Assembly: GCA_025210375.1 (NCBI GenBank)
Contig: JAOASB010000029.1
Location: forward strand, 124,001 to 188,000
Length of the DNA stretch: 64,000 nt
Direction of reading: 5' to 3'
Origin: Maledivibacter sp.
GTDB lineage: Bacteria > Bacillota > Clostridia > Peptostreptococcales > Caminicellaceae
The notes under the pieces are model-generated. The model made no database searches and had not been told where the DNA came from. It worked only from the letters and a program-made list of their open reading frames with translations. Numbering within the stretch: position 1 is the first letter of the stretch; every line of letters begins with the position of its first letter. Shown here piece by piece: positions 10,230 through 57,339 of this stretch. Made by a program: the position numbers and the translations under genes.

Positions 10230-10781
10230 TTATTTAGCCAAAGCTATTTCTTCAGTTTTTGAACCATAGTACTCTTCTAGAAGCACAGGCACTCTATATC
10301 TCAAGGATTTTTTCATATCAAGTATTCTCTGATTTTCTGAACCCCTGAACTTAAGTAACAAATTCTTTTTTTCAAGTACAAAACGACCATCTATAAGAAC
10401 ATCTATTTGCTTCAAAAATTCAATCCATCCGTCCCTATACATTTTACCTCGTTTATTTAATAGTTCCTCAAAGGTATAACCTGTATAGCACCATATATCT
10501 AATCCCATCTTTTTGGCAGCACATGCTATTTCAAAACATTCTTCGGGCTGCTCAAAGGGATCTCCTCCAGAAAATGTAACTCCCCTATGGAGCTTCAATT
10601 CCTTAAGTTCTTTAATGATATCTTCAGTATCCATTAAAAATCCACCATTAAAATCATGGGTACCAGGATTATGACACCCCCTACAATTATGCCTACAGCC
10701 CTGAGTCCAGATTACAGCCCTAAGCCCTGGGCCGTCTACAATGCTATCCCTTGTGATCCCATGTGATAGCCTAATAAGCAT
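10230..10781 (-). CDS. nrdG: anaerobic ribonucleoside-triphosphate reductase activating protein
   Basis: 183 residues. The radical-SAM cluster motif is CRHNCRGC (C-x3-C-x2-C, about residues 30-37), within GCRHNCRGCHNPGTHDFNGG, as in NrdG. VTFSGGDPFEQP is the SAM-binding glycine motif. It installs the glycyl radical on NrdD using S-adenosylmethionine and a 4Fe-4S cluster, under strict anaerobiosis. It lies 17 bases after nrdD in the same operon. Confidence 0.96.
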   Translation of the reverse strand: MLIRLSHGITRDSIVDGPGLRAVIWTQGCRHNCRGCHNPGTHDFNGGFLMDTEDIIKELKELKLHRGVTFSGGDPFEQPEECFEIACAAKKMGLDIWCYTGYTFEELLNKRGKMYRDGWIEFLKQIDVLIDGRFVLEKKNLLLKFRGSENQRILDMKKSLRYRVPVLLEEYYGSKTEEIALAK

Positions 10782-10798
10782 AAAAACACATCTCCTTA

Positions 10799-13165: not shown

Positions 13166-13179
13166 ATAATTCTTCCTTT

Positions 13180-13226
13180 CTTCTATATATTGTGTACATC
13201 ATATCTATATATACTATATATAGGAC
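13180..13226 (-). promoter_or_regulatory. tandem NrdR boxes in the nrdDG promoter
   Basis: CTATATATTG (13183-13192) and CTATATATAG (13214-13223) both match the core CwATATwG of the NrdR box; the first is extended by TGTGT. Their centres are 31 bp apart, three helical turns, as is usual for NrdR tandem sites (16-bp boxes with a 15-bp linker). The distal box overlaps a plausible -10 region for nrdDG. The nrdR gene itself is not in the window. Confidence 0.75.
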
Positions 13227-13436
13227 GGCAAGCAACAAAAAATACCCTCTACGCTAAAAAAAGGGCCAATAAATTTATGTCATTTGCTATTTGTTACTTA
13301 AATTTTATCAAAACAAAATCCAAATCTCAATAAGAAAAAAGACCCATAATCCACAGTAATTTCACTCTATTTTTCATATATCTCTTTTTTCCTCCATAAT
13401 CCTCTCATTTTTATATTAGTTGCAACCATAAAAAGC
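13227..13436. other. intergenic region without recognised feature
   Basis: About 210 AT-rich bases between the nrdDG promoter and a terminator. A possible -35 for nrdD (TTGTTG or TTGCTT on the minus strand) lies at its left edge. Nothing else is seen. Confidence 0.35.
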
Positions 13437-13461
13437 AAAAAAGCGTGTCTACACGCTTTTT
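13437..13461. terminator. terminator downstream of the oligopeptide-binding gene
   Basis: AAAAAGCGTGT and ACACGCTTTTT form a perfect stem with a two-base loop. It is symmetrical and can act in both directions. It lies about 275 bases after the substrate-binding gene, separated from it by a MITE. Confidence 0.75.
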
Positions 13462-13511
13462 CACCACATTTCTTATTGTTTATTTATAACTAATATATAT
13501 TTTTATAATTA

Positions 13512-13611
13512 TAGATATTCCAGTTAAACAGTTAATTTATACACATCAAAAATCCCTAGAAACATTGGATATTTTGAGATGTATAAATTAAGTTTAGCTT
13601 TAGGAAATCTA
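13512..13611 (-). mobile_element. MITE family 2 (100 bp), copy 1
   Basis: Exactly 100 bp, from TAGATATTCCAGT to AGGAAATCTA. The centre, CATCAAAAATCCC...ATTGGATATTTTG, matches the inverted copies at 43532 and 50124. TA dinucleotides flank the ends (the right one is TA at 13612-13613), as expected for Tc1/mariner (IS630)-type insertion. It separates the substrate-binding gene from a terminator. Confidence 0.75.
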
Positions 13612-13735
13612 TATAGATAAACAACATTAACATTTAAAATAAATTTCAAAGAAAATAATGAACACTTCTACATTTTTTCTTTGAAATCTATTCAACCTTG
13701 AAGCTGTTTATCTCTAATACCCATTGATATTTTAA

Positions 13736-15418
13736 TTATTTAGAATTGTCTATATATGTATATCCAAAGAACCAGTTTCCTAAAGACTCTTTTTGCCAGT
13801 CTACAACTCGCTTATTAACTAAAAACTTATCTGTATAATAGAAAATTGGCATAATGACCTGTTGATCAAATAGTATTTTTTCAGCAGCATATAGTGCTTC
13901 GTCTCTTTTCTCAGGATCATTTTCATTCCTTGCATTAAGAAGAAGATTGTTGTATTCTTCGTCCATCCATTGAGCTGAATTATTTGTATCCTGTCCTTCT
14001 AAAATTTCTAGCATTGACATGGCATCGGCATAGTCCACAAACCATCCGAATCTAGCCGCTCCTGTATATTCTCCATACCTCCTAGAACTAGCAAAAACAG
14101 GCCATTCCTGATTAGTTATGGTTACTTCTATATTCAAGTTTTTCTTCCACATTTCTTGAATAGCCTCTGCTATAATTTTATGGGTTTCCGATGTATTATA
14201 TAAAATTTCTATTTGAGGAAAACCTTCCCCATTTGGGAATCCGGCTTTAGCTAAATATTCCTTTGCTTTTTCAACATCTGCCTCTACTTTAACACCATAA
14301 TCCCCCATTGAAGAGAATTCATTTCCTCTTGTATCCTTTAATCCAGGTGGCACATATGTAGTAGCAGGTACTTCAGCACCCTTTGTCACATTCTCACATA
14401 TTTGTTTTCTATCGATTGCTAGGTTAAGAGCTTTTCTAACATTCACATCATTGGTTGGAGCTTTGCTGTTATTGAATACATAGAAATATGTTCCTATTTT
14501 AGGCTTAATATAAAACTCATCACTTTCACTACTTAATATAGGAATTTCTTGAGTTGGAATATTACTCATTATATCAATATCACCGGATTGATATGCCATT
14601 AATGCCGTAGATTCATTTACTAGAATATTTGCATTAATTCTATCTAGTTTTACTTTATCCATATTCCAGTAATTTTCATTTTTCTCTAAAACAAAGGTAT
14701 CTCCACTGGCATATTTAGTAAGCTTAAAAGGTCCATTGGTTACAAGTATATCCGTATTGGTAGCCCAACCTTCAGGATCCTTTTCAACTATATCCTGTCT
14801 TACTGGTAGATAAGTATAGAAGGAAGTAAGGTTTAAAAAGTATGGTGTAGGTGATTGCAATTCAACTTCTAAGGTTAAATTATCAATGGCATTAATTGCT
14901 ACATCTTCCCTTTTACCTTCTCCACTAAAGAATTCATGTCCACCCTTGATGTAAAACAATAGCATAGCATAATCTGAAGCGGTTTCGGGATCCAGAGCCC
15001 TTAACCAAGTATATTTAAAATCATTGGCAGTAAGTGGCTTTCCATCAGACCATTTTGTGTCCTTTAAGTGAAACGTATACTTTAAACCATCATCGCTTAC
15101 TTCATAGTTTTCTGCTATGGCAGGAACTAGTTTTCCATCTACTTCTCGCATTAAACCTTCATAAATATTGTTTATAATATTCCCTGCTACTGCCTGGGAA
15201 TTCAAAGTAGGATCAAGGGTTCTTGGCTCATCTGGTAAACAAAAATTCAATACCATCTCTTCTTTGCTTTCTTGGGAATCTGTTTTTTCTTCTGGTTCTT
15301 TAGTAGTTTCCTTACTAGTATCGTCTAGGCTTGCCTCTTTTCCCTTAGATGAACATCCAGTAAACAAGCTTAGAATCAATACAAAAACTAGAGATATAGC
15401 TATTAATTGTTTCTTCAA
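13736..15418 (-). CDS. peptide ABC transporter substrate-binding lipoprotein (OppA-like, SBP family 5)
   Basis: 560 residues. The lipoprotein signal peptide ends in LFTGC at residues 18-22, followed by a Ser/Lys/Glu-rich linker and then a full family-5 solute-binding domain (EPRTLDPTLNSQAVAGNIINNIYEGL). The C-terminal part contains WFVDYADAMSMLE. It should bind oligopeptides outside the membrane. No permease or ATPase genes are adjacent, so it must use a transporter encoded elsewhere. A gamma-glutamyl hydrolase gene lies just upstream on the same strand, but the 83-base gap leaves the linkage open. Confidence 0.92.
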   Translation of the reverse strand: MKKQLIAISLVFVLILSLFTGCSSKGKEASLDDTSKETTKEPEEKTDSQESKEEMVLNFCLPDEPRTLDPTLNSQAVAGNIINNIYEGLMREVDGKLVPAIAENYEVSDDGLKYTFHLKDTKWSDGKPLTANDFKYTWLRALDPETASDYAMLLFYIKGGHEFFSGEGKREDVAINAIDNLTLEVELQSPTPYFLNLTSFYTYLPVRQDIVEKDPEGWATNTDILVTNGPFKLTKYASGDTFVLEKNENYWNMDKVKLDRINANILVNESTALMAYQSGDIDIMSNIPTQEIPILSSESDEFYIKPKIGTYFYVFNNSKAPTNDVNVRKALNLAIDRKQICENVTKGAEVPATTYVPPGLKDTRGNEFSSMGDYGVKVEADVEKAKEYLAKAGFPNGEGFPQIEILYNTSETHKIIAEAIQEMWKKNLNIEVTITNQEWPVFASSRRYGEYTGAARFGWFVDYADAMSMLEILEGQDTNNSAQWMDEEYNNLLLNARNENDPEKRDEALYAAEKILFDQQVIMPIFYYTDKFLVNKRVVDWQKESLGNWFFGYTYIDNSK

Positions 15419-22280: not shown

Positions 22281-23009
22281 TTAAAACAATCTTTTAATAA
22301 TCCCATCGGGTATTTTGATTTTCCTTCTCTTTTGTATTTCAATAAATTCCTTATTTATTTCTTTTTTTAGTAATTCACTATTATATCCAAACTCTTTAGT
22401 CAATATTTCTATGGCCTGCTTTGCGGCTTTAACCTTCCACCTAGTAAGGGAAGGAAAATATGTTAATAGAAAAGCACAAAACCTGCCTCCATCCCTTTCC
22501 TTATATGCTCCATAGTGACAATCCTCTAAATCTATTCCATAGATTTTATCACTGACAATGAAATTCCTAAAATTTATATCTTCAAAAATATATCCTTTTC
22601 CTATAGTTTCCTTTGTGAGACTATAGAATTTTTGAAGCCATGTAAATAATTCAAAAAAGGCTTCATAGTTTTTTTCATTACCTATATTTTCACCTTGATT
22701 ATTTTCCAAATCAACAAGTGTATCTAAGAAAGTATCCCCGTCTATATATTCCAATAGTATATAATCAGCACCTTCAAAATAAATTTTCGGAACACTTAAG
22801 CCATTTTCAAGAGATACCCTCAAAAGAAAGGTTTCCTTTGATTTATTTTCATTAGAATTAATATATTTCTTTAACACACTAGGTATCACCAGTCCATTTG
22901 ATTTCCTTAGTTCTACTAGATACACTTCATTTTTTCTACTTTGAAATTTCCTTTTTATTATATATGAATCTATATCCTTAGGCATAATAATCTCATCTTT
23001 ACTTAGCAT
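22281..23009 (-). CDS. kinase-fold protein with altered catalytic loop, last gene of the Moco-riboswitch operon
   Basis: 242 residues with the layout of a small protein-kinase/RIO/Kdo-kinase-like fold. A lysine follows a strand near residue 47 (PSVLKKYI), the hinge-like motif is YILLEYIDGDTF (about 82-93), a loop FEDINFRNFIV (about 142-152) is in place of HxDxxxxN, and GIDLEDC stands for the DFG region. The usual HGD is replaced by FED, so activity is uncertain. It overlaps mobB by 11 bases, linking it to molybdenum/tungsten cofactor metabolism. No characterised homologue comes to mind. Confidence 0.7.
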   Translation of the reverse strand: MLSKDEIIMPKDIDSYIIKRKFQSRKNEVYLVELRKSNGLVIPSVLKKYINSNENKSKETFLLRVSLENGLSVPKIYFEGADYILLEYIDGDTFLDTLVDLENNQGENIGNEKNYEAFFELFTWLQKFYSLTKETIGKGYIFEDINFRNFIVSDKIYGIDLEDCHYGAYKERDGGRFCAFLLTYFPSLTRWKVKAAKQAIEILTKEFGYNSELLKKEINKEFIEIQKRRKIKIPDGIIKRLF

Positions 23010-23757
23010 CTTCCTTACCTATTTCAATCCTAATTTTTGAGCCTCTCTCATAGCCATCAAGCTCACTAACTATTCCCTGTATAGTATTTGATAGTATGCT
23101 TTGCACAAAGGGTACAATATCAATTTTTTTATCATTAATAAATAGGCTCACATTGCTTTCTGACAGTATACAATCGCTTCGCTTTGCTTCCCCTTTAAGA
23201 ATCTTAATACCTAGGGTTCTACAATCATAACCACAAGCACTACAACATTTAGACTCAAAATCGGGAAGCTTGACAAATACTTTTTCCTCAATCGTATCAA
23301 CCAATTCATCCAGATTGTCCAAACTATTTATTACGGGTATACCCTTGTAGGAATCAATATCATTGGAAATTCTACCTGATATAGCAAAAACACTTTCATC
23401 TAATTTTTCCTCTATTTCATCTATGCTTTTTGCAGTAAGAATTTTGGGTAAATTATAGTCAGTAACTCCTTCTAATACCACATATTCCTGATCATAAAAG
23501 CTCAGCATCTTTTCTACAGAAATTTTCTTTGGGAAAAGAACATCGGTTTCAAAATATCCTCTAGCTGTTACAAGCTCTGCTCCAGCCATCCTATGCCTAT
23601 ATGTGTTACTGCCTACCATATCTATGGCAAAGTCTTCGTAGTGTATTTCCTTTACCGACCCAACTGAATATTTTCTCATTTTTAATTCCCTAATTATATT
23701 TTCTATAGTAGTTGTTTTCCCAGAACCTGTAAATCCAAACACTGAAAATACTTTCAT
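22999..23757 (-). CDS. mobB: MobB-like GTP-binding protein with C-terminal iron-sulfur extension
   Basis: 252 residues. The P-loop GFTGSGKTTTIENII (about residues 8-22) and the KEIHYEDFAIDMVGSNTYRHRMAGAELV segment are typical of MobB, which helps MobA attach GMP to molybdopterin. The core (about 1-165) is followed by CCSACGYDCRTLG (about 170-182). Further on comes a Cys in the SDCIL segment, enough cysteines for a 4Fe-4S cluster, and a tail with FINDKKIDIVPFVQSILSNT. No mobA or moa gene is next to it. It lies between EcfT and the kinase-like gene in the riboswitch operon. Confidence 0.88.
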   Translation of the reverse strand: MKVFSVFGFTGSGKTTTIENIIRELKMRKYSVGSVKEIHYEDFAIDMVGSNTYRHRMAGAELVTARGYFETDVLFPKKISVEKMLSFYDQEYVVLEGVTDYNLPKILTAKSIDEIEEKLDESVFAISGRISNDIDSYKGIPVINSLDNLDELVDTIEEKVFVKLPDFESKCCSACGYDCRTLGIKILKGEAKRSDCILSESNVSLFINDKKIDIVPFVQSILSNTIQGIVSELDGYERGSKIRIEIGKEDAK

Positions 23758-23785
23758 CTTTTCATCCCCTTTTTTACTTTTGCCT

Positions 23786-24529
23786 TTATAGGGTCACATA
23801 TAAATAAGCTATAAAGGCCGATGTCATTATACTGGCTATGGATATTAAGTAATCCCTTTTATTCATCTTTAGTCTTATATAGCTGGTTCTTTTATTAAAA
23901 GCTCGAAAACCCCTACATTCCATAGCTATAGAAAGCTTCTTAGATTTTACAATTGCTCCTGCAACTACAGGTATAAATATATGGGAATAGAGTTTTATTT
24001 TTTCATTTATTGATAGCTTATCCATATCTATTCCTCTAAGTTGAATTGCTATAAGGGTATCTTCAAGTTCTTCCCTTAGTAAGGGTAAAAACCGTATGGC
24101 TATGGATACCATAAAGGCAATTTCATAGGGTATCTTCCACTCAACAAGACCTTGAAGTATCTCCCGGGATGTAGAAGTCATGAGTATAGCTGCAGATATC
24201 AATATAATGGATATTCGAAGAAGAAATTCTAAGGCCCTAAAGATTCCCATATCCGTCAATAAAGTAAATCTTCCTAGGGCTAGTATTGGAGTCCCACCCT
24301 TTATAAATAAACTTTGAATAATGATCATAGCAATGAATACACCTAAAATTTTTCTTAATTTCTTAAATACTATAAAAACCTCACTCTTTAAAATCTGGCT
24401 GACCACAAGGGATATTCCAAATATCAATATTAGATACTTCAAGTCCCCTATAAGCACGGATAACGATGATATGGATATGACAATGATTAACTTAGTTCTG
24501 GGATCCAGTAGTTTATCTTCCATCATCAA
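23786..24529 (-). CDS. ecfT: ECF transporter transmembrane component EcfT
   Basis: 247 residues. LDPRTKLIIVI at the N-terminus is the EcfT hallmark. Several helices follow, and the cytoplasmic coupling region carries the two Ala-Arg-Gly-type motifs (IAIQLRGIDMD and AMECRGFRAF) that contact the two ATPases. Its start overlaps the end of the ATPase gene upstream by 17 bases. It couples ATP hydrolysis to the S-component, most simply the one at 27889-28443 in the same operon. Confidence 0.93.
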   Translation of the reverse strand: MMMEDKLLDPRTKLIIVISISSLSVLIGDLKYLILIFGISLVVSQILKSEVFIVFKKLRKILGVFIAMIIIQSLFIKGGTPILALGRFTLLTDMGIFRALEFLLRISIILISAAILMTSTSREILQGLVEWKIPYEIAFMVSIAIRFLPLLREELEDTLIAIQLRGIDMDKLSINEKIKLYSHIFIPVVAGAIVKSKKLSIAMECRGFRAFNKRTSYIRLKMNKRDYLISIASIMTSAFIAYLYVTL

Positions 24530-25175
24530 TTATTTCACCTCTTGCCATTTCAATTCTTCGTGTGGCATGTGATTTTACAAAATCAAAATCATGGCTAATG
24601 ATTATCATACCTACTCCATCACCTATAAGCTCCATAAGATATTTAGAAAGCTTTTCCTTTCTAATTTTATCTAGTCCAGTTGTAGGCTCATCAAGTATCA
24701 AAAATTTAGGTTTATTCATAAGTATTGCTGCCAAAGCTAATCTTTGCTTTTCACCATAACTCAAATTAAAGGTAACATCATGTCTTTTCGGGCTTAGATC
24801 AAAGAAATCCAAAAGTTTTTCCATTTTATCATAGGACTGATGGATGTCTCTTCCCTTAAGCTTATCCACAAATAGCAGCTCTTCAGTGACTGTTGAGGTA
24901 AAAAGCTGACGGCTAGGATTTTGAAACAAATATCCTATTTTATTGCCAATTTGTCCTAGATTTAATTTTCTTGTGTTATTGCCACAAATAAAAACATCTC
25001 CATCCATGGGTTTTAATATTCCTGCCAACAACTTCCCTAGAGTCGTCTTTCCTCCTCCATTGTGTCCAGTTATAGCTGTAATATCCTCTTTAAATATATT
25101 TAAGGAAATGTCGTTAATAACTTTTTTTCTTCTTGGATATCCGAAGACAATATTCTTTGCATCAATATAAGTCAT
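24513..25175 (-). CDS. ecfA: ECF transporter ATP-binding protein (second EcfA)
   Basis: 220 residues. Walker A GHNGGGKTTLGKLLAG, a Q-loop in YLFQNPSRQLFT, signature LSYGEKQRLALAAIL, Walker B FLILDEPTTGLD and H-loop SHDFDF are all intact. FQNPSRQLF is characteristic of ECF ATPases. It pairs with the other EcfA encoded directly upstream (three-base gap). It is a little shorter than usual EcfA proteins. Confidence 0.93.
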   Translation of the reverse strand: MTYIDAKNIVFGYPRRKKVINDISLNIFKEDITAITGHNGGGKTTLGKLLAGILKPMDGDVFICGNNTRKLNLGQIGNKIGYLFQNPSRQLFTSTVTEELLFVDKLKGRDIHQSYDKMEKLLDFFDLSPKRHDVTFNLSYGEKQRLALAAILMNKPKFLILDEPTTGLDKIRKEKLSKYLMELIGDGVGMIIISHDFDFVKSHATRRIEMARGEIIDDGR

Positions 25176-25178
25176 CTA

Positions 25179-25865
25179 CTACAATTCTCCTTTAAATTCA
25201 TTTAATTTTCCGTTTTTTAATAAAATCACTCTATCTGCCACATCTAGGTTATTAAAATCATGTTCTATCATTACTATGGTTTTTCCATCATCCTTCAATC
25301 TTCTTATAACCCTTTTTATTATTCCTTTTCCCCTATCATCTATTTGTGCCATGGCTTCATCGAAAACTAAAATATTGGGTTCTAGGCTCAATACTCCTGC
25401 AAGGGCGATGAGTTGCTTCTCTCCTCCTGAAAGATTATTAGGATTATGGTACCTATATTTCTCCATTCCCGTAAGCTTTAGAACCTCATCAATCCTTACT
25501 GCAATCTCTTCCCTTGGAATACAGAGATTCTCTGGCCCAAAGGCAATCTCATCCTCAACAGTGGGAGAAAACAATTGGGTATCAGGGTCTTGAAAAACTA
25601 CACCAATTATGGTTGCAAGCTTTGCCATATTCATATCCCTAACATTTTCTCCAAAAATTTTAACATTCCCCTGTAGATTCCCTTTGAATGTATTTGGAAT
25701 GATACCGTTTAATGTGTAGCATAATGTGCTTTTACCATTGCCACTTAATCCCACTATAGCTAGAACTTCTCCCCTTTGTATATTAAGATTAATGCCATTA
25801 AGTATGTAGTCACTTTGTCCCTTATATTTAAAGTAAAGATTATCTATTTCAATAGCGGGTATCAC
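25179..25865 (-). CDS. ecfA: ECF transporter ATP-binding protein (first EcfA)
   Basis: 228 residues. Walker A GLSGNGKSTLCYTLNG, Q-loop region VFQDPDTQLFSPTVEDEIAFGPEN (the ECF-type signature), LSGGEKQLIALAGVL, and Walker B NILVFDEAMAQID, where DEAMAQID differs from the usual DEPTSGLD but keeps the catalytic Asp-Glu. The start is GTG in TAAGTG, overlapping the stop of the upstream gene. Confidence 0.93.
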   Translation of the reverse strand: MIPAIEIDNLYFKYKGQSDYILNGINLNIQRGEVLAIVGLSGNGKSTLCYTLNGIIPNTFKGNLQGNVKIFGENVRDMNMAKLATIIGVVFQDPDTQLFSPTVEDEIAFGPENLCIPREEIAVRIDEVLKLTGMEKYRYHNPNNLSGGEKQLIALAGVLSLEPNILVFDEAMAQIDDRGKGIIKRVIRRLKDDGKTIVMIEHDFNNLDVADRVILLKNGKLNEFKGEL

Positions 25866-26377
25866 TTAACATCTGCCTCCACTGCAAACTTGCACCAATG
25901 TTGACTAATTTTATCCTTGCTTATAATCATTTGATAGGGTCCCTTTCCACCATCTTCCCTATTCCCTATGGATTTACCTTCTCTCATATAAGCTAAATAC
26001 ACATTATCGTCCTCAAGTATTTTATCAATTTCAACTGCAACCGTATAACCATCAATAGCTGTTACAACCAAAGTAGATTTTTCCTTAATGTCTACACCAT
26101 ACTTTTCAAATAAGTTCTTAAGTGGAACCCCAGTATAAGTATAACGGATAGGCTCTTTTCCATTTGTCTTAAGATTTGCACTGAATTCCGTTTCTCCAAG
26201 TGTTCTTATTTCCTTCATATTTAGTTTTGCTATCTCCTTACCATTTTCCTTAATAACAAACTCAGCGTTTTCCTGCAATTCCTTTTTAACTTCTACGGTT
26301 TTTAGATTCATATATGCTGTACTGCCAACTATTACAGCTAAAATTATAATTACCAAGGTTATTTTTCTATTCATCAT
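25862..26377 (-). CDS. membrane-anchored sulfite-oxidase-fold domain protein
   Basis: 171 residues: an N-terminal signal anchor (about residues 5-25), then one domain resembling the oxidoreductase molybdopterin-binding (SUOX/YedY) fold. Marks are YTYTGVPLKNLFEKYGV (about 80-96), VVTAIDGYTVAVEI and, near the end, GKGPYQMIISKDKISQHWCKFAVEADV. True SUOX enzymes have a Cys ligand to molybdenum before the G-V-P-L motif; here that stretch (FSANLKTNGKEPIRY) has none. I infer a cofactor- or pterin-binding role rather than catalysis. It overlaps its neighbours on both sides. Confidence 0.72.
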   Translation of the reverse strand: MMNRKITLVIIILAVIVGSTAYMNLKTVEVKKELQENAEFVIKENGKEIAKLNMKEIRTLGETEFSANLKTNGKEPIRYTYTGVPLKNLFEKYGVDIKEKSTLVVTAIDGYTVAVEIDKILEDDNVYLAYMREGKSIGNREDGGKGPYQMIISKDKISQHWCKFAVEADVK

Positions 26378-27876
26378 TCCCCGCCTCCCTCAAGATCAAA
26401 ATAAGGTACAGTCATATCTTCATATCTGAACATTCCATGGGTTCCTCCCTTGGGTGTGGAGTGCATTCCATGGTCAGAGGTTATTATTATCCTCCCATTC
26501 CACCTAGTAGATAATTCTCTCACATATTCATCAACTATTTTTAGGGTATCCATTGTTTCCTTTGCAAAGTCCCCCTTTTCATGGCCCATATCGTCTATAC
26601 TGTGAAAATGAACTAATGCTAAATCAAGCTCTTCCTTCAATTCCTTTAATGAAGTCTCAAATACTTCGTCGTCCTTTGTTCCGTTTTTATTTCTATCGAT
26701 ATTTAAAATTGGTTCTATTTCCGTATTTAAAATCTTTATATCCGCTTCAATAAGTACTGCTTTCTTATCCTTCTTCTGTGCAAACCCGAATATGGATTCT
26801 GTTTTCAGCTCCTTATACTTTCTATCATATACTCCATTTATATTTGGAGGTTGTCCAGTGATCATTGCGGCAAACCCTGCATTTGTAACTGGCTTAAATA
26901 CCGTTGTTGCCATCTTAGGCTTCTCTAGGCTTCCCATAAAGGGGATGTAGCCCTTTGATAAAGCATATTCATATTGATGGTACCCAAAACCGTCTAAGAA
27001 AAGTATTAAAACCTTTTCCCCATTTTCAATATAATGTAGGGCATCATAATAGGTATTCATTATACTATCCGCTGGTATCTCAGTCATGATACCCTTTATG
27101 CCATGAATTTGTTTTCTATTATCTGGATCAATATAATGAATCCTATTACCAATTAATTCAAGGTATCCTTCACTATCAATCCTTTCATAAGCACCGTTTT
27201 CTCCCATCATTAAAAATGGCCCCTCATTTGAATTGACAATTTCTTTTATTGGAAGCAGTTTTTTCTGCTTATATAGTCTTACATCATATTCTCTTCCGCC
27301 TTCGGCTTTAGTTGACTTGCCATCAAAGTATGGATATAAAGTAAGCTCTTTAAGATATAACTGTCCCGGAGTAATATTTATAAGATTTTCTCTTGTGGTA
27401 ATGACATTGAACCCATAATCCCAAGAATTATCCTTTGAAACAACTACTATTTCTTTCATTCCCTTTATTCTACTGTTAATTGGATGATTTTCTGTTATAG
27501 ATTCCCAACCATTTTTATCAGAAAACTTCAGGTAACAATCATCCATATTTTTACTTGCTATTTGGGCAAATAAACCATCCTCACCCACCAAAAGTATATC
27601 GTAGCTTTTAGCAGCAGGCTTTGCCATATATATAAGCTCCTTAAGGGGAATAAGCCTTTGATTTAAAGCCTCTTCCTTTGCCCCTGTGGATTTGAAATCC
27701 GCTACTGAAACCACCTCGTTTACATCCCCTATTACGGCAAGCCCAGGAATATATGTAGATACTTCTTCTAAGCTAGGTGTTGTCATTCTTCCAATTAAAG
27801 CCCCTAATATCAAGGAAGCCGCACCTATGATTAGCAGCATCGTAAAAGGAATAGATGGTTTTAAATTTTTATTCAT
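26374..27876 (-). CDS. membrane-anchored nucleotide pyrophosphatase/phosphodiesterase fused to SUOX-like domains
   Basis: 500 residues. One N-terminal helix (about 12-30). Residues about 45-270 appear to hold two degenerate SUOX-like repeats (LIPLKELIYMAKPAAKSYDILLVGEDG and a second around LLPIKEIVNSNEGPFLMMGENG, ending GIKGIMTEIP). Residues about 285-500 are an alkaline-phosphatase-superfamily type I phosphodiesterase: LFLDGFG (metal Asp), PVTNAGFAAMITG (Thr nucleophile), HFHSIDDMGHEKG and ITSDHGMH...GGTHGM (metal ligands). It faces outward. Such enzymes cleave nucleotide pyrophosphate bonds, so a dinucleotide cofactor is a candidate substrate (inference). Confidence 0.82.
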   Translation of the reverse strand: MNKNLKPSIPFTMLLIIGAASLILGALIGRMTTPSLEEVSTYIPGLAVIGDVNEVVSVADFKSTGAKEEALNQRLIPLKELIYMAKPAAKSYDILLVGEDGLFAQIASKNMDDCYLKFSDKNGWESITENHPINSRIKGMKEIVVVSKDNSWDYGFNVITTRENLINITPGQLYLKELTLYPYFDGKSTKAEGGREYDVRLYKQKKLLPIKEIVNSNEGPFLMMGENGAYERIDSEGYLELIGNRIHYIDPDNRKQIHGIKGIMTEIPADSIMNTYYDALHYIENGEKVLILFLDGFGYHQYEYALSKGYIPFMGSLEKPKMATTVFKPVTNAGFAAMITGQPPNINGVYDRKYKELKTESIFGFAQKKDKKAVLIEADIKILNTEIEPILNIDRNKNGTKDDEVFETSLKELKEELDLALVHFHSIDDMGHEKGDFAKETMDTLKIVDEYVRELSTRWNGRIIITSDHGMHSTPKGGTHGMFRYEDMTVPYFDLEGGGE

Positions 27877-27888
27877 GGGTCTACCTCC

Positions 27889-28443
27889 CTATCCTTCTAT
27901 TTCCAACAAATTAAATTTTCCAAGTCCCTTAATAATGTTGTAGGCAATTATACCTCCAATTCCCCCCGATAGTGCTGCACTGCTTAATGACAATATTAAA
28001 GGAATAAGTGGAAGTCTAAAAAAAACTATGTTTGACAAAAAGGTTCCACTAATGTTGGCAGCTATTCCAGCTAGAAAGCAGTCTAATATTCTATTTCCTT
28101 TACCTCTTATAATAAATAGTAAGATATCTACCATAAAGCCCGGTAATGTATAGGTTGCTATACTCAATATTCCATGGGTACCATAAAGCCCAGTTACTAT
28201 TATCATTATGGCTTGAACAAATGCTATCAAAGTGGCACTGCCTCTTTTCCCTACAAGCCCAGCCCCAAGTACTATCCACATCATGTAAAATCCTCCGGCA
28301 ATGGCTCCTCCAGGTATATATAATGGTCCCGTTATAATATGAGCCAGTGGTACAACCACTGGCTTTGTTGCTATTCCTAATGCCGCCATCATAGCTATTA
28401 TGATGAGTTCAAATACAGAGAAACCACTAAGAAATTTACCCAT
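27889..28443 (-). CDS. ECF transporter S-component of unassigned specificity
   Basis: 184 residues, about six membrane helices. ALGIATKPVVVPLAHIITGPLYIPGGAIAGGFYMMWIVLGAGLVG resembles S-components of the YkoE/HMP-type group, but the assignment is not firm. It lies between two SUOX-domain genes and a few hundred bases before EcfA-EcfA-EcfT in one operon, so it should define the substrate of this ECF complex. The Moco-type riboswitch upstream points to a molybdenum/tungsten pterin or a precursor. Confidence 0.85.
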   Translation of the reverse strand: MGKFLSGFSVFELIIIAMMAALGIATKPVVVPLAHIITGPLYIPGGAIAGGFYMMWIVLGAGLVGKRGSATLIAFVQAIMIIVTGLYGTHGILSIATYTLPGFMVDILLFIIRGKGNRILDCFLAGIAANISGTFLSNIVFFRLPLIPLILSLSSAALSGGIGGIIAYNIIKGLGKFNLLEIEG

Positions 28444-28460
28444 AGTTTTTATCTCCTCTA

Positions 28461-28946
28461 TTATTTAATAACTTTTATTTTAGCGACTCCCTTTATCCAC
28501 CAATTTGAACCTTTACCGTTAATAACTAATTGAACCCTATTATCCTCTTTTAGCGCTTCCCCATCTACCATTACCCCTAGAATAGTACCTTCACTAATTA
28601 CTAAATCCTTTGTTAATTCCTTACCATATCCATCTACAGCTTCAACTGTAACTGAATTATATTCTCCAGCCCCTAATTGCTCTAGTACTTCCTTAAGTCC
28701 ATATCCCTTCCATGTTTGTTCCTTTTCACTTCCATCTTTTTTCTTCATCGTAGCTTTAATCTCTTTGACTCCAATTTCCTCTGCATCTAGATCGGTAAAG
28801 CTTATTGCTTCATCCTTAATGCCTGCTACACTTATAGTCCACACCGCTTCCTGAGTCGTAGCATTCTCCTCCACCTTACATCCTACAAAAACAGTTAACA
28901 TTAAAGCTAGAATTAAAACAAAACCCATTATTTTTTTCATTTTCAT
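28461..28946 (-). CDS. lipoprotein with a single sulfite-oxidase-fold domain
   Basis: 161 residues. The signal peptide ends in a lipobox VFVGC (about residues 19-23). One SUOX-like domain follows: WKGYGLKEVLEQLGAGEY (about 79-96), VTVEAVDGYGKEL, GVMVDGEALKED and a C-terminal NWWIKGVAKIKV that mirrors the WVK-x-I ending of the family. No Cys is present outside the lipobox, so it cannot ligate molybdenum in the enzyme manner. It is 30 bases downstream of a two-domain relative. Confidence 0.78.
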   Translation of the reverse strand: MKMKKIMGFVLILALMLTVFVGCKVEENATTQEAVWTISVAGIKDEAISFTDLDAEEIGVKEIKATMKKKDGSEKEQTWKGYGLKEVLEQLGAGEYNSVTVEAVDGYGKELTKDLVISEGTILGVMVDGEALKEDNRVQLVINGKGSNWWIKGVAKIKVIK

Positions 28947-28975
28947 CTTAAGTCCCCCTAATTATAGAATATGAT

Positions 28976-30088
28976 CTATTTCTTAGCTTCTATTTTAATA
29001 ATTCCTTTTATTTTAGTATTTTTAGGCATTCCCTCAAACATTAAAGTAAATCCACCCTTATTTCTTGGATATACTAACCCCTTTTCTATATGGTCAGCGG
29101 ATATTTCAGTCTCATATCCATCCTCAGCTATACATAAATACTTGTCTCCACTATTAAGTCCTGCTTCTTTAAATAGGCTTTTTAGTGATACTCCTTTTTT
29201 ATCTTCAACTGCTTTGTTTTCAAATGCATTTAATGCTTGAGTCAGTGAAACATATATAGTATCTCCATATGTTAAAAGGAGAATATTTTTTACATGCATT
29301 CCCTTGGGAAGCTCCGGTGATAGAAATAAGGGAATATCTTTACCAGTTACTTTAATATATCCAGACTTTAATACCTCTATGTCTTCATGCTTTTCTAATC
29401 CATCTACAGCCTTTAAGGATGCTCCTTTTTTATCAGTAACCCCACTGAATGCATTAAATAAGTCAACCACTTTTATAGCTTTGTCCGTACTTTCATAATA
29501 GGTATAATCCTCTTGCTGTAAACTAGAAGCTGCTGTCTCTATAAATACTATCTTATTTATAGTACTTTGTTCTTCCTCAAGAAGCTCGATTCCAACAAGA
29601 TTTTTTACCCAATACATGGATCTTTCATCGGGTATAGCCGACATTAATGGTAAGGCTTTTTCATCTAAGGGTTTATCCTCCACTTCATAGGCTAAAACCA
29701 CATCTCTTTTTTGGAGTATTTCCTTAGGAACTACTATGGAATAACTATCACCAGCTATAAACCGAATGCCCCCATAATTTTTTTGAGAGGCTCCATAAAG
29801 CTCCAGCAACCCCTCAAGAGAAATCCCCGTTACCTTTTTCTTTTTGATTTCTCCACTCGATGTGATAGACTCCATTTCCTCTATTACTGGGGCTAGCTCC
29901 TTGAGTTTTTCAACGCTTATCTTCTTATCTCCATCCTTAAATCCTTTAATAGATATTTCTACTACTTCCTTCATTTCATTATTTTGATTACCTTCACTGG
30001 TTTTTATGGCCTTATTAGTGCATGATACGGAAAATATTAGTAAAAGAATGAGCGTAAGTAGTCCCACTTTTTTTATCAAATTATTCAT
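28976..30088 (-). CDS. lipoprotein with tandem sulfite-oxidase-fold domains
   Basis: 370 residues. The signal peptide ends in FSVSC (about residues 19-23). Two SUOX-like repeats follow. The first, about 45-175, has VTGISLEGLLELYGA, GDSYSIVV and MYWVKNLVGIEL. The second, about 190-370, has KGVSLKSLFKEAGL, IAEDGYETEI and KGIIKIEAKK. Neither carries the molybdenum-ligand cysteine. It is anchored outside the membrane and encoded just before the single-domain lipoprotein and the S-component. It is probably part of the extracellular capture side of the transport system. Confidence 0.78.
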   Translation of the reverse strand: MNNLIKKVGLLTLILLLIFSVSCTNKAIKTSEGNQNNEMKEVVEISIKGFKDGDKKISVEKLKELAPVIEEMESITSSGEIKKKKVTGISLEGLLELYGASQKNYGGIRFIAGDSYSIVVPKEILQKRDVVLAYEVEDKPLDEKALPLMSAIPDERSMYWVKNLVGIELLEEEQSTINKIVFIETAASSLQQEDYTYYESTDKAIKVVDLFNAFSGVTDKKGASLKAVDGLEKHEDIEVLKSGYIKVTGKDIPLFLSPELPKGMHVKNILLLTYGDTIYVSLTQALNAFENKAVEDKKGVSLKSLFKEAGLNSGDKYLCIAEDGYETEISADHIEKGLVYPRNKGGFTLMFEGMPKNTKIKGIIKIEAKK

Positions 30089-30564
30089 TTATTACTCCCC
30101 CTGATCCTTTGATAATTATCCATACAAAGATTAACCCCTTTAATAACGGTCTCACTGGTAATTGTTGCCCCAGTTATAGCCACAATTTCTTTTTCTTCTT
30201 TACTAGACATTTTTACCATCCTTAGTGGAGTAGCCACAGACTTTTCTTTAAATCTCTCTAAAAACCATTCTTCAGTTAACAAGCCTCCATAATCCTTAGA
30301 TTCCCTATGTTCTAAGACTTGTATATGTCTAATTTTTTCTGTTTTACAATTAATTGTAACCATAATCTTTATTTCATCCACATATCCTTTTACTTTAACC
30401 AATTGAATTAATTCTTCGGTTTTGTCATCTATTACTTTATAAACCCCATAAACATTCTTATTCTCATATTCGTCCAAATTTTTTACTGTCTGATTTTCTT
30501 TAGTTACTGCTTGTACATCTTTATCTATCTTTGCACCACAAGATGATAGTAAAATAGTAATCAT
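30085..30564 (-). CDS. FMN-binding domain lipoprotein, first gene of the Moco-riboswitch operon
   Basis: 159 residues as drawn. The C-terminal part is an FMN-binding domain with ITGATITSETVIKGV (about 130-144), where the second Thr is the likely site of covalent flavin attachment; HRESKDYGGLL is the upstream motif. The first ATG gives only MITILLSSCG, too short for a signal peptide. Reading upstream in frame gives IRIKLIICF before it, which would complete a lipoprotein signal, with ATA at 30591 seven bases after AGGAGG. A rare start or sequence error is possible. The role is probably electron transfer, or flavin attachment by ApbE. Confidence 0.82.
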   Translation of the reverse strand: MITILLSSCGAKIDKDVQAVTKENQTVKNLDEYENKNVYGVYKVIDDKTEELIQLVKVKGYVDEIKIMVTINCKTEKIRHIQVLEHRESKDYGGLLTEEWFLERFKEKSVATPLRMVKMSSKEEKEIVAITGATITSETVIKGVNLCMDNYQRIRGSNK

Positions 30565-30611
30565 GAAACAAATAATTAGTTTAATTCTTATGACATCTCC
30601 TCCTCTTTAAT

Positions 30612-30640
30612 CTACCAATGGTAGTTACAGCTATTGGTAG
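30612..30640 (-). repeat. hairpin directly before the ribosome site of the FMN-binding gene
   Basis: CTACCAAT (30612-30619) and ATTGGTAG (30633-30640) are perfect complements. The element sits about ten bases upstream of GAGGAGGAG. It may affect translation of the first gene or stabilise the processed mRNA, or be a protein-binding palindrome. Confidence 0.55.
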
Positions 30641-30701
30641 TTCTAAGTTTTCAAGTGATTCTCCGATGAAAAAGAATTTCTTAAAGCCATTAATAGATAG
30701 A

Positions 30702-30760
30702 CAAAAAATAAATACAACTACTATCCCTTGATGGAAGAAGTTGTATTATGATCTCTTCTT
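30702..30760 (-). terminator. attenuator of the Moco-type riboswitch
   Basis: On the minus strand ATACAACT (30746-30739) pairs with AGTTGTAT (30719-30712), and TTATTTTTT follows: an intrinsic terminator 180 nt into the leader, well before the first gene. AAGAAG (30760-30755) can instead pair with CTTCTT (30740-30735), which enters the terminator stem, a candidate antiterminator. Confidence 0.6.
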
Positions 30761-30785
30761 TGAAACATTAAACCCAAATATTCAC

Positions 30786-30889
30786 ATTCTCCTTTCCACC
30801 CTGGGAGGCATAGCCGTTTCCAGTTACACCCTATTGGCTTATCAGCCCTAAGTATGAAACCCTATAGGCCAAACAGCTCGGAGAAATAT
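30786..30889 (-). ncRNA. molybdenum/tungsten cofactor (Moco/Tuco) riboswitch aptamer
   Basis: Read on the minus strand, the element opens with ATTTCTCCGAGC and closes with GCCTCCCAGGGTGGAAAGGAGAAT, so TTCTCC/GGAGAA make the basal stem. AGCTGTTT pairs with AAACGGCT to form the next helix, and internal CCTATAGGG and GGCTGATAAGCC hairpins fill the junction. The GCCTCCC...GGAAAGG segment matches what I know of Moco RNAs, such as that before E. coli moaA. The transcript from the promoter just upstream begins with this aptamer. A covariance-model search was not possible here. Confidence 0.82.
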
Positions 30890-30903
30890 TCCATTTGAGT
30901 ATA

Positions 30904-30932
30904 ATATTACATTATTGTTAGTATAATGTCAA
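30904..30932 (-). promoter_or_regulatory. promoter of the Moco-riboswitch operon
   Basis: On the minus strand TTGACA (30932-30927), a 17-base spacer and TAATAT (30909-30904) give a consensus-like promoter. The start site falls about ten bases before the aptamer. Confidence 0.78.
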
Positions 30933-55161: not shown

Positions 55162-57339
55162 TTATGCCATTGCTTGTTCTTTGTCAAGGAACGGCTTTAC
55201 GACTTCTACTACTTCATCAAAATCAATACCAAGCTTTTTAAGATGCTCAAGGGTAGGAACTCCATTGTTACTCCACCCTCTACGCTTGTATACTGCATCC
55301 GTAAGCTTGTCATACTGACCTTCTCTATATTCTCTTAGGACAGCCATTCTTTCCTCAATGGTTTTACCGACTGGATCATAGTCAACTAATTCCCTTAGTT
55401 GACCATCATACCTTTCTTCTCTAGAAAGATATTCTTCCTTAGTGACTGGTCCCATAGATCTATATGGAGTAGCATCATTCTTTCTTAAACCTTTTCCCAT
55501 TCTTATATTAAATACTCTTTGGAAGTTATACACCCTCTCGGATTCAGTTATCATACTATCCTTATCAATACCTCTTCCTGTAACCCCATTTGCAACATCA
55601 ATATAATTATGAACATGCTCTGGAATTTTGGCTGGCTCATCTTCATACTGATTATTTTCTGGTACTATATCATTCCAACACAATTTACAGAAACCATATA
55701 ATCCAAACCAAGTCCTAAACATGGGATAATAGTGTAATGCCTCTGCCTTATTTTCAAAGGTTGGTATTTGGTTATTGACCATATCTATAAATATTAGCCA
55801 TGCTTCATCATGCTGTGGCCCTTTATTAGTGAGTCCATAACCGCCCTGTTGAGCTAAGGATTCCTTGGACATATACTCTGAATACTCAAGACCTTTTTGT
55901 TCCATTCCTATATCAAACAAGAAATTGGGATCTCCACCGTATTCCTCGGCAAATATTTTTTTCATTCTCAATATACCTTGACCAGCTATTTTCCCAAAGC
56001 CTTCTCCTTTAGCCATTTGATGTATTAGCTCCAGGGCCGCATCAGCATTTCCGAAATTAAGCTCAAGACCACCGGTTATCTCCTTGTTTAATATACCATT
56101 TTCATAGCATTCCATAACAAATGCAGTTAAAGTTCCAAAGGAAATAGTATCTATCCCATAGGTATCACAATAGAAATTGAGTTCAAGTATTACATGGGGA
56201 TCAAAAATACCACAGTTTGGTCCAAGTCCCGCTGCATTTTCATACTCTGGTCCATCAACCACTACCTTATCTCCCTTGTATCGTCCAGTTTTAAGTTCAA
56301 AATTATCAGCTGCCTTGGCACATGCCATTGAACATCCATACCAACATCCGTCTGGCATATTCTGGGTTATATATTTTTCTATAAATACTGTAGAAGCTAC
56401 TTTATAAGTATCCGGATGGGCTCCAAACTTGTAATTGTGGGTAGGTAATAGGTCATATTTATCCATAACCTCGATGATATTGGCAGTACCGATTTTTCTC
56501 ATATTATTTTGATTTTTATCATTTTTACACATATTCTTATGAAATCTAACTCCCGCTTCTCTAATAAGATCAGGATCTACTGGATTGTTTAAATCCGATC
56601 TAACACCATCAAATTTAATAACAATAGCTTTAATCTTTTTATCTCTAAAAACTGTTCCTATGCCGCCTCTACCAGCCTGCTTAAGTCTAACTGCCTTTCT
56701 TCTTAAATCATAAAAAGTAAAATTAAGTATGCCTAGCCTAGTATGCTCTGCGGCGGTACCCGCAGTTATAACTGAAATATTTTTTTTATCATACTCATTA
56801 TCCCCATACATATCGGTCAATACCTCACCAAGTATATGTCCATCTATTGGCTCTAAGGGAGCTTTCTCTATAGTGACCTTGTTATTTAAACCATCAATAT
56901 ATATAATTATATCTTCCTCAGCCTTACCCTGTACCTCGAGAGTATCAAAGCCAGAGAATTTTAGATAGGGCCCAAAGTAACCACCAACATTAGAATCTAT
57001 TGGGATATCCGTCATAGGAGATATGGAACATACCAAGGATTTACCCGTACCAGAATAAGTTGTTATGCCACAGGCAGGTCCTCCCGATATAACTATTTCA
57101 TTCTCTGGATCATTCCATTTTGTATTCTCAGTAACTGCATTCCAAAGATACCATAAACCATAACCCTTCCCTCCAACAAACTTCTCCTTAACCATTGGAG
57201 GTATGTCCTTAATCGATATCTTATTTTCTCCAATATTTATATACAGGGTCTTGTCTGTATAACCTTTATCTATAGGTGCTTTTATATATTCAAGACTAGT
57301 AATAAGCTCCCGGGCATCTCTCATTGCTTTTATATCCAT
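55162..57339 (-). CDS. tungsten/molybdenum aldehyde:ferredoxin oxidoreductase family protein
   Basis: 725 residues, about 100 longer than classical AOR. Marks of the family: FVGGKGYGLWYLWN (about 53-66), SGGPACGITTYSGTGKS, and RRKAVRLKQAGRGGIGTVFRDKKIKAIV (pterin contacts, about 212-239). The cluster region is DGCWYGCSMAC (about 333-343), with a distant Cys in FCKLCW (about 550). The first three cysteines are spaced C-x3-C-x3-C, not C-x2-C-x3-C. It should oxidise an aldehyde or related substrate with the bis-pterin W/Mo site, passing electrons to the ferredoxin-like protein upstream. The substrate is unknown. Confidence 0.93.
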   Translation of the reverse strand: MDIKAMRDARELITSLEYIKAPIDKGYTDKTLYINIGENKISIKDIPPMVKEKFVGGKGYGLWYLWNAVTENTKWNDPENEIVISGGPACGITTYSGTGKSLVCSISPMTDIPIDSNVGGYFGPYLKFSGFDTLEVQGKAEEDIIIYIDGLNNKVTIEKAPLEPIDGHILGEVLTDMYGDNEYDKKNISVITAGTAAEHTRLGILNFTFYDLRRKAVRLKQAGRGGIGTVFRDKKIKAIVIKFDGVRSDLNNPVDPDLIREAGVRFHKNMCKNDKNQNNMRKIGTANIIEVMDKYDLLPTHNYKFGAHPDTYKVASTVFIEKYITQNMPDGCWYGCSMACAKAADNFELKTGRYKGDKVVVDGPEYENAAGLGPNCGIFDPHVILELNFYCDTYGIDTISFGTLTAFVMECYENGILNKEITGGLELNFGNADAALELIHQMAKGEGFGKIAGQGILRMKKIFAEEYGGDPNFLFDIGMEQKGLEYSEYMSKESLAQQGGYGLTNKGPQHDEAWLIFIDMVNNQIPTFENKAEALHYYPMFRTWFGLYGFCKLCWNDIVPENNQYEDEPAKIPEHVHNYIDVANGVTGRGIDKDSMITESERVYNFQRVFNIRMGKGLRKNDATPYRSMGPVTKEEYLSREERYDGQLRELVDYDPVGKTIEERMAVLREYREGQYDKLTDAVYKRRGWSNNGVPTLEHLKKLGIDFDEVVEVVKPFLDKEQAMA

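Follow-up and report, generated by a model that had tools for sequence, protein, structure and literature searches.

Among described systems, the closest to the locus examined here is YkoEDC of B. subtilis (PDB 5EDL; PMC5037267), a group-I energy-coupling factor (ECF) transporter with dedicated EcfA and EcfT subunits, a related S-component and riboswitch control. The queuosine salvage system QrtT/QueK/QueL of C. difficile (PMC11477304) likewise joins a riboswitch-controlled ECF S-component to enzymes that trim and rebuild a scavenged compound. The Moco RNA regulon of Regulski et al. (2008; PMC2408646) was described as covering genes for synthesis of the molybdenum cofactor (Moco), metal transport and enzymes, with no importer, and includes an RNA form without the P3 stem, which those authors associated with use of the tungsten cofactor (Tuco). 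Here, we analyzed an eleven-gene operon that lies behind such an RNA in a 64,000-nucleotide stretch of a Maledivibacter sp. genome (contig JAOASB010000029.1, positions 124,001 to 188,000; hereafter the window), and we conclude that its products most likely form a group-I ECF transporter that takes up the finished molybdenum or tungsten (Mo/W) pterin cofactor.

Cells are thought to need their own Moco synthesis, with C. elegans as an exception (PMC9793310), and the synthetic pathway has been stated to be essential in all Moco users (PMC6147048). Dietary Moco uptake by C. elegans resembles our proposal in using mature Moco made by another organism; it differs in concerning an animal, the transport mechanism there is unknown, and no homologous genes are implied. 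About 300 "orphan molybdoprotein" bacteria have been reported to possess molybdoenzymes with incomplete Moco synthesis, mostly without Mo transporters, and were left unexplained (Peng et al. 2018, PMC6147048). In the literature we searched, which comprised open-licence papers only, so that absence is not proof, no bacterial Moco importer is described.

The eleven open reading frames all lie on the minus strand, from 30564 to 22281, downstream of the riboswitch, with gaps mostly of 0-30 bp or overlaps. This is the layout given in a preliminary description of the window, and most of the families named there were confirmed by Pfam or NCBIfam. The riboswitch and the genes, in operon order, are as follows:
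30773..30895, minus strand: Moco/Tuco riboswitch aptamer RF01055, P3-less (Rfam covariance model, 66.5 bits against a gathering threshold of 36, E=8e-14)
30085..30564, minus strand: FMN-binding lipoprotein (FMN_bind, PF04205, 50.7 bits) with a TGAT-type flavinylation motif
28976..30088, minus strand: SUOX-fold lipoprotein of 370 aa without the Mo-ligating cysteine (PF00174, 36.7 bits; family alignment; PDB sulfite oxidases)
28461..28946, minus strand: SUOX-fold lipoprotein of 161 aa without the Mo-ligating cysteine (PF00174, 31.1 bits; family alignment)
27889..28443, minus strand: ECF S-component, divergent member of the YkoE superfamily (PF09819, 40.3 bits, cut-off 25.2; alignment; residue test)
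26374..27876, minus strand: membrane-anchored NPP-type phosphodiesterase with an N-terminal SUOX-like region (PF01663, 57 bits; alignment; structure)
25862..26377, minus strand: SUOX-fold protein with a transmembrane anchor, adjoining the ECF genes (PF00174, 31.2 bits; family alignment)
25179..25865, minus strand: EcfA, ATPase 1 (TIGR04520, 228.5 bits)
24513..25175, minus strand: EcfA', ATPase 2 (TIGR04521, 159.9 bits)
23786..24529, minus strand: EcfT, CbiQ-type (PF02361, 106.8 bits)
22999..23757, minus strand: MobB-family GTPase with a C-terminal CxxC...C iron-sulfur motif (Pfam MobB, 63 bits; NCBIfam; family alignment)
22281..23009, minus strand: small-molecule-type kinase with a RIO/Bud32/APH-like fold and intact catalytic residues (alignment; AlphaFold2 model)

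Dedicated A, A', T and S genes thus share one operon in a conserved order, which is the group-I ECF arrangement. Unlike YkoEDC, this operon has a Moco/Tuco rather than a THI riboswitch and additionally contains SUOX lipoproteins, an NPP protein, MobB and a kinase. QrtT/QueK/QueL differs in its deazaguanine substrate, in an S-component that uses a shared ECF core and in having no extracellular capture lipoproteins.

We searched for the S-component in 198 genomes of the same order as the host. Close-clade members (51-87% identity) were found in 23 of them, referred to as carriers, and distant relatives (30-35%) in a few. In about 20 genera, the close-clade genes were embedded in the gene order FMN-SUOX-(SUOX)-S-NPP-SUOX-A-A'-T-MobB-kinase. 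A wider scan of 84,980 species genomes yielded 195 relatives of the S-component, and the best 80 of these 195 were fetched as named loci; these 80 came nearly all from Bacillota, plus two Dehalococcoidia records, and most of them kept the gene order. Among the loci of at least 12 kb (n=61), EcfT was present in 57, the anchored SUOX protein in 55, MobB in 48, a SUOX lipoprotein in 47, NPP in 41 and the kinase in 40, and counts for the FMN protein are rough because its profile drifted to larger multi-domain proteins. Since the same gene order recurs across genera and named loci, the cluster is not a chance assembly. A covariance model built from 21 cluster RNAs placed a riboswitch upstream of most named clusters, seven of which were confirmed by Rfam itself. 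In the order sample, RF01055 was detected in 22 of the 23 carrier genomes, compared with 65 of the 175 others.

A decisive test of import is whether some carriers have lost cofactor synthesis and still retain the enzymes that use the cofactor, as uptake of the finished cofactor would predict. Using PF06463 as the marker for moaA and AFOR_N for tungsten-type aldehyde:ferredoxin oxidoreductase (AOR), we found moaA to be absent from 3 of the 23 order carriers and from 18 of the 50 named carriers, which, with one genome shared, gives 20 distinct genomes. Within this set, moeA was missing from 18, moaC from 19, and all three genes together from 18, and carriers with moaA that were searched alike had both moaC and moeA. 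The riboswitch precedes the cluster in 17 of the 18 moaA-less named carriers. The enzymes were nevertheless kept: AFOR_N was found in 18 of the 20 moaA-less carriers versus 4 of 60 moaA-less non-carriers of the same order (Fisher p=3e-12), a contrast in which some of the carriers, unlike the non-carriers, were drawn from the wider scan. These 60 controls were taken from about 65 moaA-less genomes of the order that have no close-clade S-component. Formate dehydrogenase (FDH)-type proteins, mostly with an in-frame TGA (selenocysteine), occurred in 10 of the 20 carriers and in none of the 60 controls; only strong matches of ~750-950 aa (one fused, 1436 aa) above 265 bits were counted, and PF00384 matches of ~1,120-1,200 aa, which are NuoG-like and limit the use of this family as a marker of Moco enzymes, were left out of the enzyme counts. 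The loss is scattered: when the moa-less state is mapped onto the S-component tree, well-supported branches require it to have changed at least 11 times.

Individual genomes illustrate this pattern. Clostridiaceae bacterium M8S5 (CP118523.1) has one closed chromosome of 4,683,267 bases with a full cluster, and moaA, moaC and moeA are all absent from it; its FDH, FdhD and MobA genes are retained together at one locus, and a single AOR gene lies at another. A second genome (G008), which is 100% complete, likewise lacks moaA, moaC and moeA; it encodes six AORs, as well as a molybdopterin-dependent aldehyde oxidoreductase of the Mo-hydroxylase type (1233 bits, cut-off 1100) directly behind a Moco riboswitch. 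In Anaerosalibacter massiliensis, one of the two moaA-less carriers without AFOR_N, an FDH gene lies directly behind EcfT in the same orientation, and moaA, moaC and moeA are absent. The preliminary description had read the operon as a scavenging and import system for the Mo/W-pterin cofactor and had proposed looking for co-occurrence where moa genes are missing; these 20 genomes are the outcome of that search and, together with the aptamer and S-component results given below, they support its reading.

The joint loss also bears on what is imported. Without MoaA and MoaC no cyclic pyranopterin monophosphate (cPMP) can be formed, and without MoeA no metal can be inserted; a metal-loaded pterin must therefore enter. 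As 18 carriers lack all three genes, the cofactor should be taken up with its metal already in place, and not as cPMP or another metal-free precursor. Import of a metal-free precursor, cPMP or molybdopterin (MPT), to be finished inside the cell, would fit a gene context that is equally pterin-related, and the MoaA, MoaC and MoeA of the window's host could complete any precursor. However, 18 moa-less carriers with AOR or FDH lack MoeA, which is needed to insert the metal, cPMP and MPT are very unstable, and NPP enzymes target nucleotide pyrophosphates and phosphodiesters, which fits a dinucleotide cofactor. We regard precursor import as unlikely.

A somewhat less likely alternative still is that the operon imports inorganic tungsten or molybdenum, as an oxyanion, thio-anion or metal chelate, with the SUOX lipoproteins acting as metal-chelate binders. 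Genes for Mo/W transport are among those under Moco RNA control (PMC2408646), ECF systems for cobalt and nickel exist, and a TupA-like tungstate-binding protein or a Peripla_BP_2 ABC system adjoins the cluster in two named loci (L036, L041). However, bare metal would be useless to the 18 carriers without moaA, moaC and moeA, and we rejected a metal importer for this reason. Metal transporters exist besides this system in several genomes, a phosphodiesterase, a kinase and MobB would be senseless for a metal ion, and the S-component is not of the CbiM/NikM type: no operon protein matched a CbiM/NikM-type S-component family in Pfam, and the operon contains no N gene.

Several points weigh against import of the finished cofactor. 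Besides the mixed sampling noted above, the AOR contrast is weaker within the order sample alone (2/3 vs 4/60, p=0.02), and one carrier (G180) shows no AOR, no FDH and no riboswitch. Most moa-less carriers are draft or metagenome-assembled genomes, in which gaps could mimic loss. Assembly gaps are unlikely to be the general cause, because the closed M8S5 chromosome and the 100%-complete G008 also lack the genes; moreover, moaA, moaC and moeA are unlinked in carriers G045, G107 and G009, so that a single assembly gap would not remove all three. A pathway replacing MoaA, MoaC and MoeA together would also account for the loss, and we consider it improbable. The cysteine-less SUOX domains described below might bind something else. 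Lastly, the window's host itself makes the cofactor: it has moaA, moaC and two moeA genes behind another Moco riboswitch (G000:C29:40995-45833). Because these genes are present, the operon supplements synthesis in this host, which is not auxotrophic. The preliminary description had pointed to a tungsten-type AOR at about 55 kb as a user of the cofactor, and the gene is indeed there, outside the operon (AFOR_N match at G000:C29:180614-181252, window 56614-57252):
55162..57339, minus strand: tungsten-type aldehyde:ferredoxin oxidoreductase (AFOR_N, 8.5e-46)

Two of the four AOR-encoding exceptions among the 60 non-carriers stand out. One (G111) has an AOR together with a distant S-component beside xanthine dehydrogenase genes. 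The other (G186), without moaA and moaC, has an AOR and no detected S-component. In the latter genome, Moco RNAs also lie upstream of two large secreted proteins (L161:2-4925(-) and 10278-14323(-)), one of 944 aa with a SUOX domain and one of 617 aa; their genes are near Rnf-like genes and an AOR operon that is preceded by a Moco RNA, with MobB and a ThiF-like protein nearby.

The identity of the S-component provides a further line of evidence. The window protein had no direct match in the PDB, and YkoE was reached only through a distant relative (L057), which matches 5EDL at 5e-15. YkoE and the window clade share 15-21% identity. In YkoE, thiamine is coordinated by Y46, W49, E77, Q95 and D131 (PMC5037267); in all 22 members of the window clade these residues are replaced, by G, Y, V/I, P and S/V/T. 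An importer of thiamine, hydroxymethylpyrimidine or another vitamin of the YkoE group, placed by chance under a Moco riboswitch, would explain the PF09819 match and the link to 5EDL through L057. However, the loss of all five coordinating residues argues against it, Rfam scans of the window and of 15 loci detected no thiamine pyrophosphate (THI) riboswitch, and RF01055 alone lies upstream of the clusters there, and the SUOX fusions and MobB point to molybdopterin. We rejected a YkoE/thiamine importer on the residues and the riboswitch type, and a vitamin importer of this group is the most improbable of the alternatives considered. The S-component, although a distant YkoE homologue, retains none of the thiamine-binding residues, which speaks against its belonging to a characterised vitamin family, as the import reading expected.

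At two loci, an S-component and a SUOX or SUOX-like domain form a single polypeptide. In L051:3954-5045(-), a C-terminal SUOX domain follows the S-component and both Pfam models score above cut-off, while in L057:7072-8187(-) the SUOX-like domain reaches 22.3 bits against a cut-off of 24. The L057 protein retains E77 and Q95 of YkoE and adjoins a 528-aa A1-like ATPase of double length. Members of a distant S-component clade (30-35% identity; L053:7058-8228(-), L055, L056:6560-9251(-), L058:7700-8855) have no A or T genes of their own. Their neighbours include a MocA-type cytidylyltransferase in L053 (183.8 bits, cut-off 186.45) and a similar protein in L058, and in L056 a P-loop NTPase and xanthine dehydrogenase genes; this clade is perhaps an importer branch for cytosine-dinucleotide enzymes. 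In a genome without moaA (G138, L054:4904-8572), a Moco riboswitch is followed by a distant S-component and an anchored SUOX protein, and a molybdopterin oxidoreductase gene adjoins this pair on the other strand.

PF00174 (Oxidored_molyb) scores above cut-off in three window proteins. The Mo-ligating cysteine is not conserved in these SUOX domains: the lipoprotein alignments keep only the lipobox cysteine, and the cysteine of the anchored protein varies. For this reason, they look like binders rather than enzymes. This bears on the possibility that an extracytoplasmic enzyme, either a molybdoenzyme of the SUOX type or a flavin-linked reductase, is matured or supplied by these genes and served by the ECF part. 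FMN_bind lipoproteins and ApbE-like genes do occur in several clusters, and Regulski et al. took similar S. wolfei genes for sulphite oxidases: two P3-less RNAs there precede "putative sulphite oxidase" genes, an exception left unexplained (PMC2408646). However, ECF transporters are importers, and loss of moaA, moaC and moeA in carriers would be left unexplained. We rejected a sulfite oxidase enzyme for lack of the Mo-ligating cysteine, and the possibility as a whole appears very improbable. The S. wolfei genes may belong to the same system as the operon described here.

The remaining enzymes fit handling of a nucleotide-bearing pterin. In the NPP protein, the metal ligands and the threonine nucleophile (D295/T331/D428/D468/H469/H480) are invariant in 21 sequences, and a Foldseek search placed NPP structures at the top, with almost only NPP/alkaline-phosphatase-type proteins among the matches listed. 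The SUOX-pyrophosphatase fusion proposed earlier is thus solid in its NPP half, whereas its N-terminal half appears SUOX-like in profile comparison alone (hhalign probability 74-76%), given those Foldseek matches. The product of the last gene had no Pfam family match; its AlphaFold2 model (pLDDT 92) has a kinase fold nearest to Bud32/RIO/APH types, and in the family alignment K47/D144/N149/D160 are invariant and E59 nearly so. Known S-components usually take a dephosphorylated vitamin that is afterwards trapped by a kinase. The conserved kinase suggests, by analogy, that a dephosphorylated pterin is imported and then trapped by phosphorylation; most simply, it would re-phosphorylate a pterin fully dephosphorylated outside. 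An NPP enzyme stripping the nucleotide outside and MobB inside are consistent with GMP being added within the cell, as would be the case in M8S5, because it keeps MobA.

Based on these observations, we infer transport and propose the following route for import of the finished cofactor. Outside the membrane, the cysteine-less SUOX-fold lipoproteins would bind either the cofactor itself or the dinucleotide form that dead cells release. Cleavage of the nucleotide pyrophosphate may then fall to the anchored NPP phosphodiesterase, probably leaving a dephosphorylated pterin, and the membrane-anchored SUOX protein would pass this pterin to the S-component for uptake driven by EcfAA'T. Inside, the kinase may restore the pterin phosphate, and MobB, together with MobA encoded elsewhere, may help to attach GMP; both removal and re-attachment of the nucleotide are inferred, and the form that enters may vary from this scheme. 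A role of the FMN lipoprotein in holding the dithiolene/pterin or the metal in a reduced state is a guess. The P3-less Moco RNA would shut the operon off when cofactor is plentiful.

It is likely, if slightly less so than import itself, that the operon represents the first known route by which bacteria scavenge mature Mo/W cofactor, combining SUOX-based capture and trimming, an ECF importer and intracellular re-phosphorylation and nucleotidylation, that many anaerobes are auxotrophs dependent on it, that anoxic communities share the cofactor as a kind of "vitamin", and that the distant S-component clade may be a cytosine-dinucleotide branch. If true, a bacterial importer would overturn the view that cells needing Moco must make it themselves, and Moco/Tuco would be a tradeable cofactor like B12 or queuosine. 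The operon could explain the published "orphan" molybdoenzyme organisms, which resemble the moa-less carriers in having molybdoenzymes without full Moco synthesis; that work differs in being a phylogenomic observation without a mechanism (PMC6147048), and an importer would offer one. The "sulphite oxidase" exceptions in the 2008 set of P3-less RNAs could likewise be explained. Such an importer might also become a means of supplying deficient cells with the cofactor, which is of interest since human Moco deficiency lacks a general cofactor supply.

We further analyzed the control elements upstream of the operon:
30904..30932, minus strand: promoter-like TTGACA-17/18-TAATAT, just upstream of the aptamer (10/12 consensus positions)
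~30711..30747, minus strand: AU-rich hairpin with a U-run behind it, probably the expression-platform terminator (shuffling test)

RF01055 was the sole Rfam match in the 64-kb window, well above its gathering threshold, which bears out the Moco-type aptamer reported earlier. The P3 stem positions are deleted in the Rfam alignment, making the RNA Tuco-type by the correlation of Regulski et al. (2008), and the aligned RNAs of relatives have the same short length. A promoter and a terminator had also been claimed. The promoter-like element is placed correctly for a start near 30897, whereas the number of such motif matches in the region is at chance. The hairpin precedes UUUAUUUUUU, and just one of 200 shuffled sequences folds as well as it does (z = -2.76), whereas a strict terminator scan requiring G-C pairs found none in the region; a terminator here is plausible. 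For the FMN protein, the most convincing lipoprotein sequence results when translation begins at an AUA codon at 30591, with GGAGGAG 5 nt upstream (window 30564-30609(-)), which suggests a rare AUA start codon.

Moco riboswitches were also observed at other loci. In the window's host, one (L156:9517-11491(-), contig C19) lies upstream of an NAD-dependent delta-1-pyrroline-5-carboxylate dehydrogenase (TIGR01236, 791 bits), possibly a cofactor-free isozyme switched on when the tungsten cofactor is scarce. Another (L157:3242-7734(+), contig C26) precedes a FecCD-type permease, an ATPase, a periplasmic-binding lipoprotein and a protein of 255 aa that weakly resembles TiaS ("CIDDTD"); a gene set resembling this one is inserted into the importer cluster of L078 and L088. 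In G008, the genome without Moco synthesis, a Moco riboswitch (L153:6293-6410(+), contig C7) lies ~530 bp upstream of a MATE-like efflux gene, next to a ThiF/MoeB-like gene. In three named loci (L036:14578-16938(-), L037 and L038), a TupABC-like tungstate transporter operon is convergent to the importer operon, with a Moco RNA on its upstream side in L037 (16682-16803) and L038 (207-330).

Finally, MoaE (PF02391, the large subunit of MPT synthase) was not found in G000, G009, G022, G045, G048, G107 and G124, all of which have moaA, moaC and moeA. Being absent also from carriers with moaA, it is useless as a pathway marker, and its absence suggests that MPT synthase in this order is of an unusual kind or escapes recognition.

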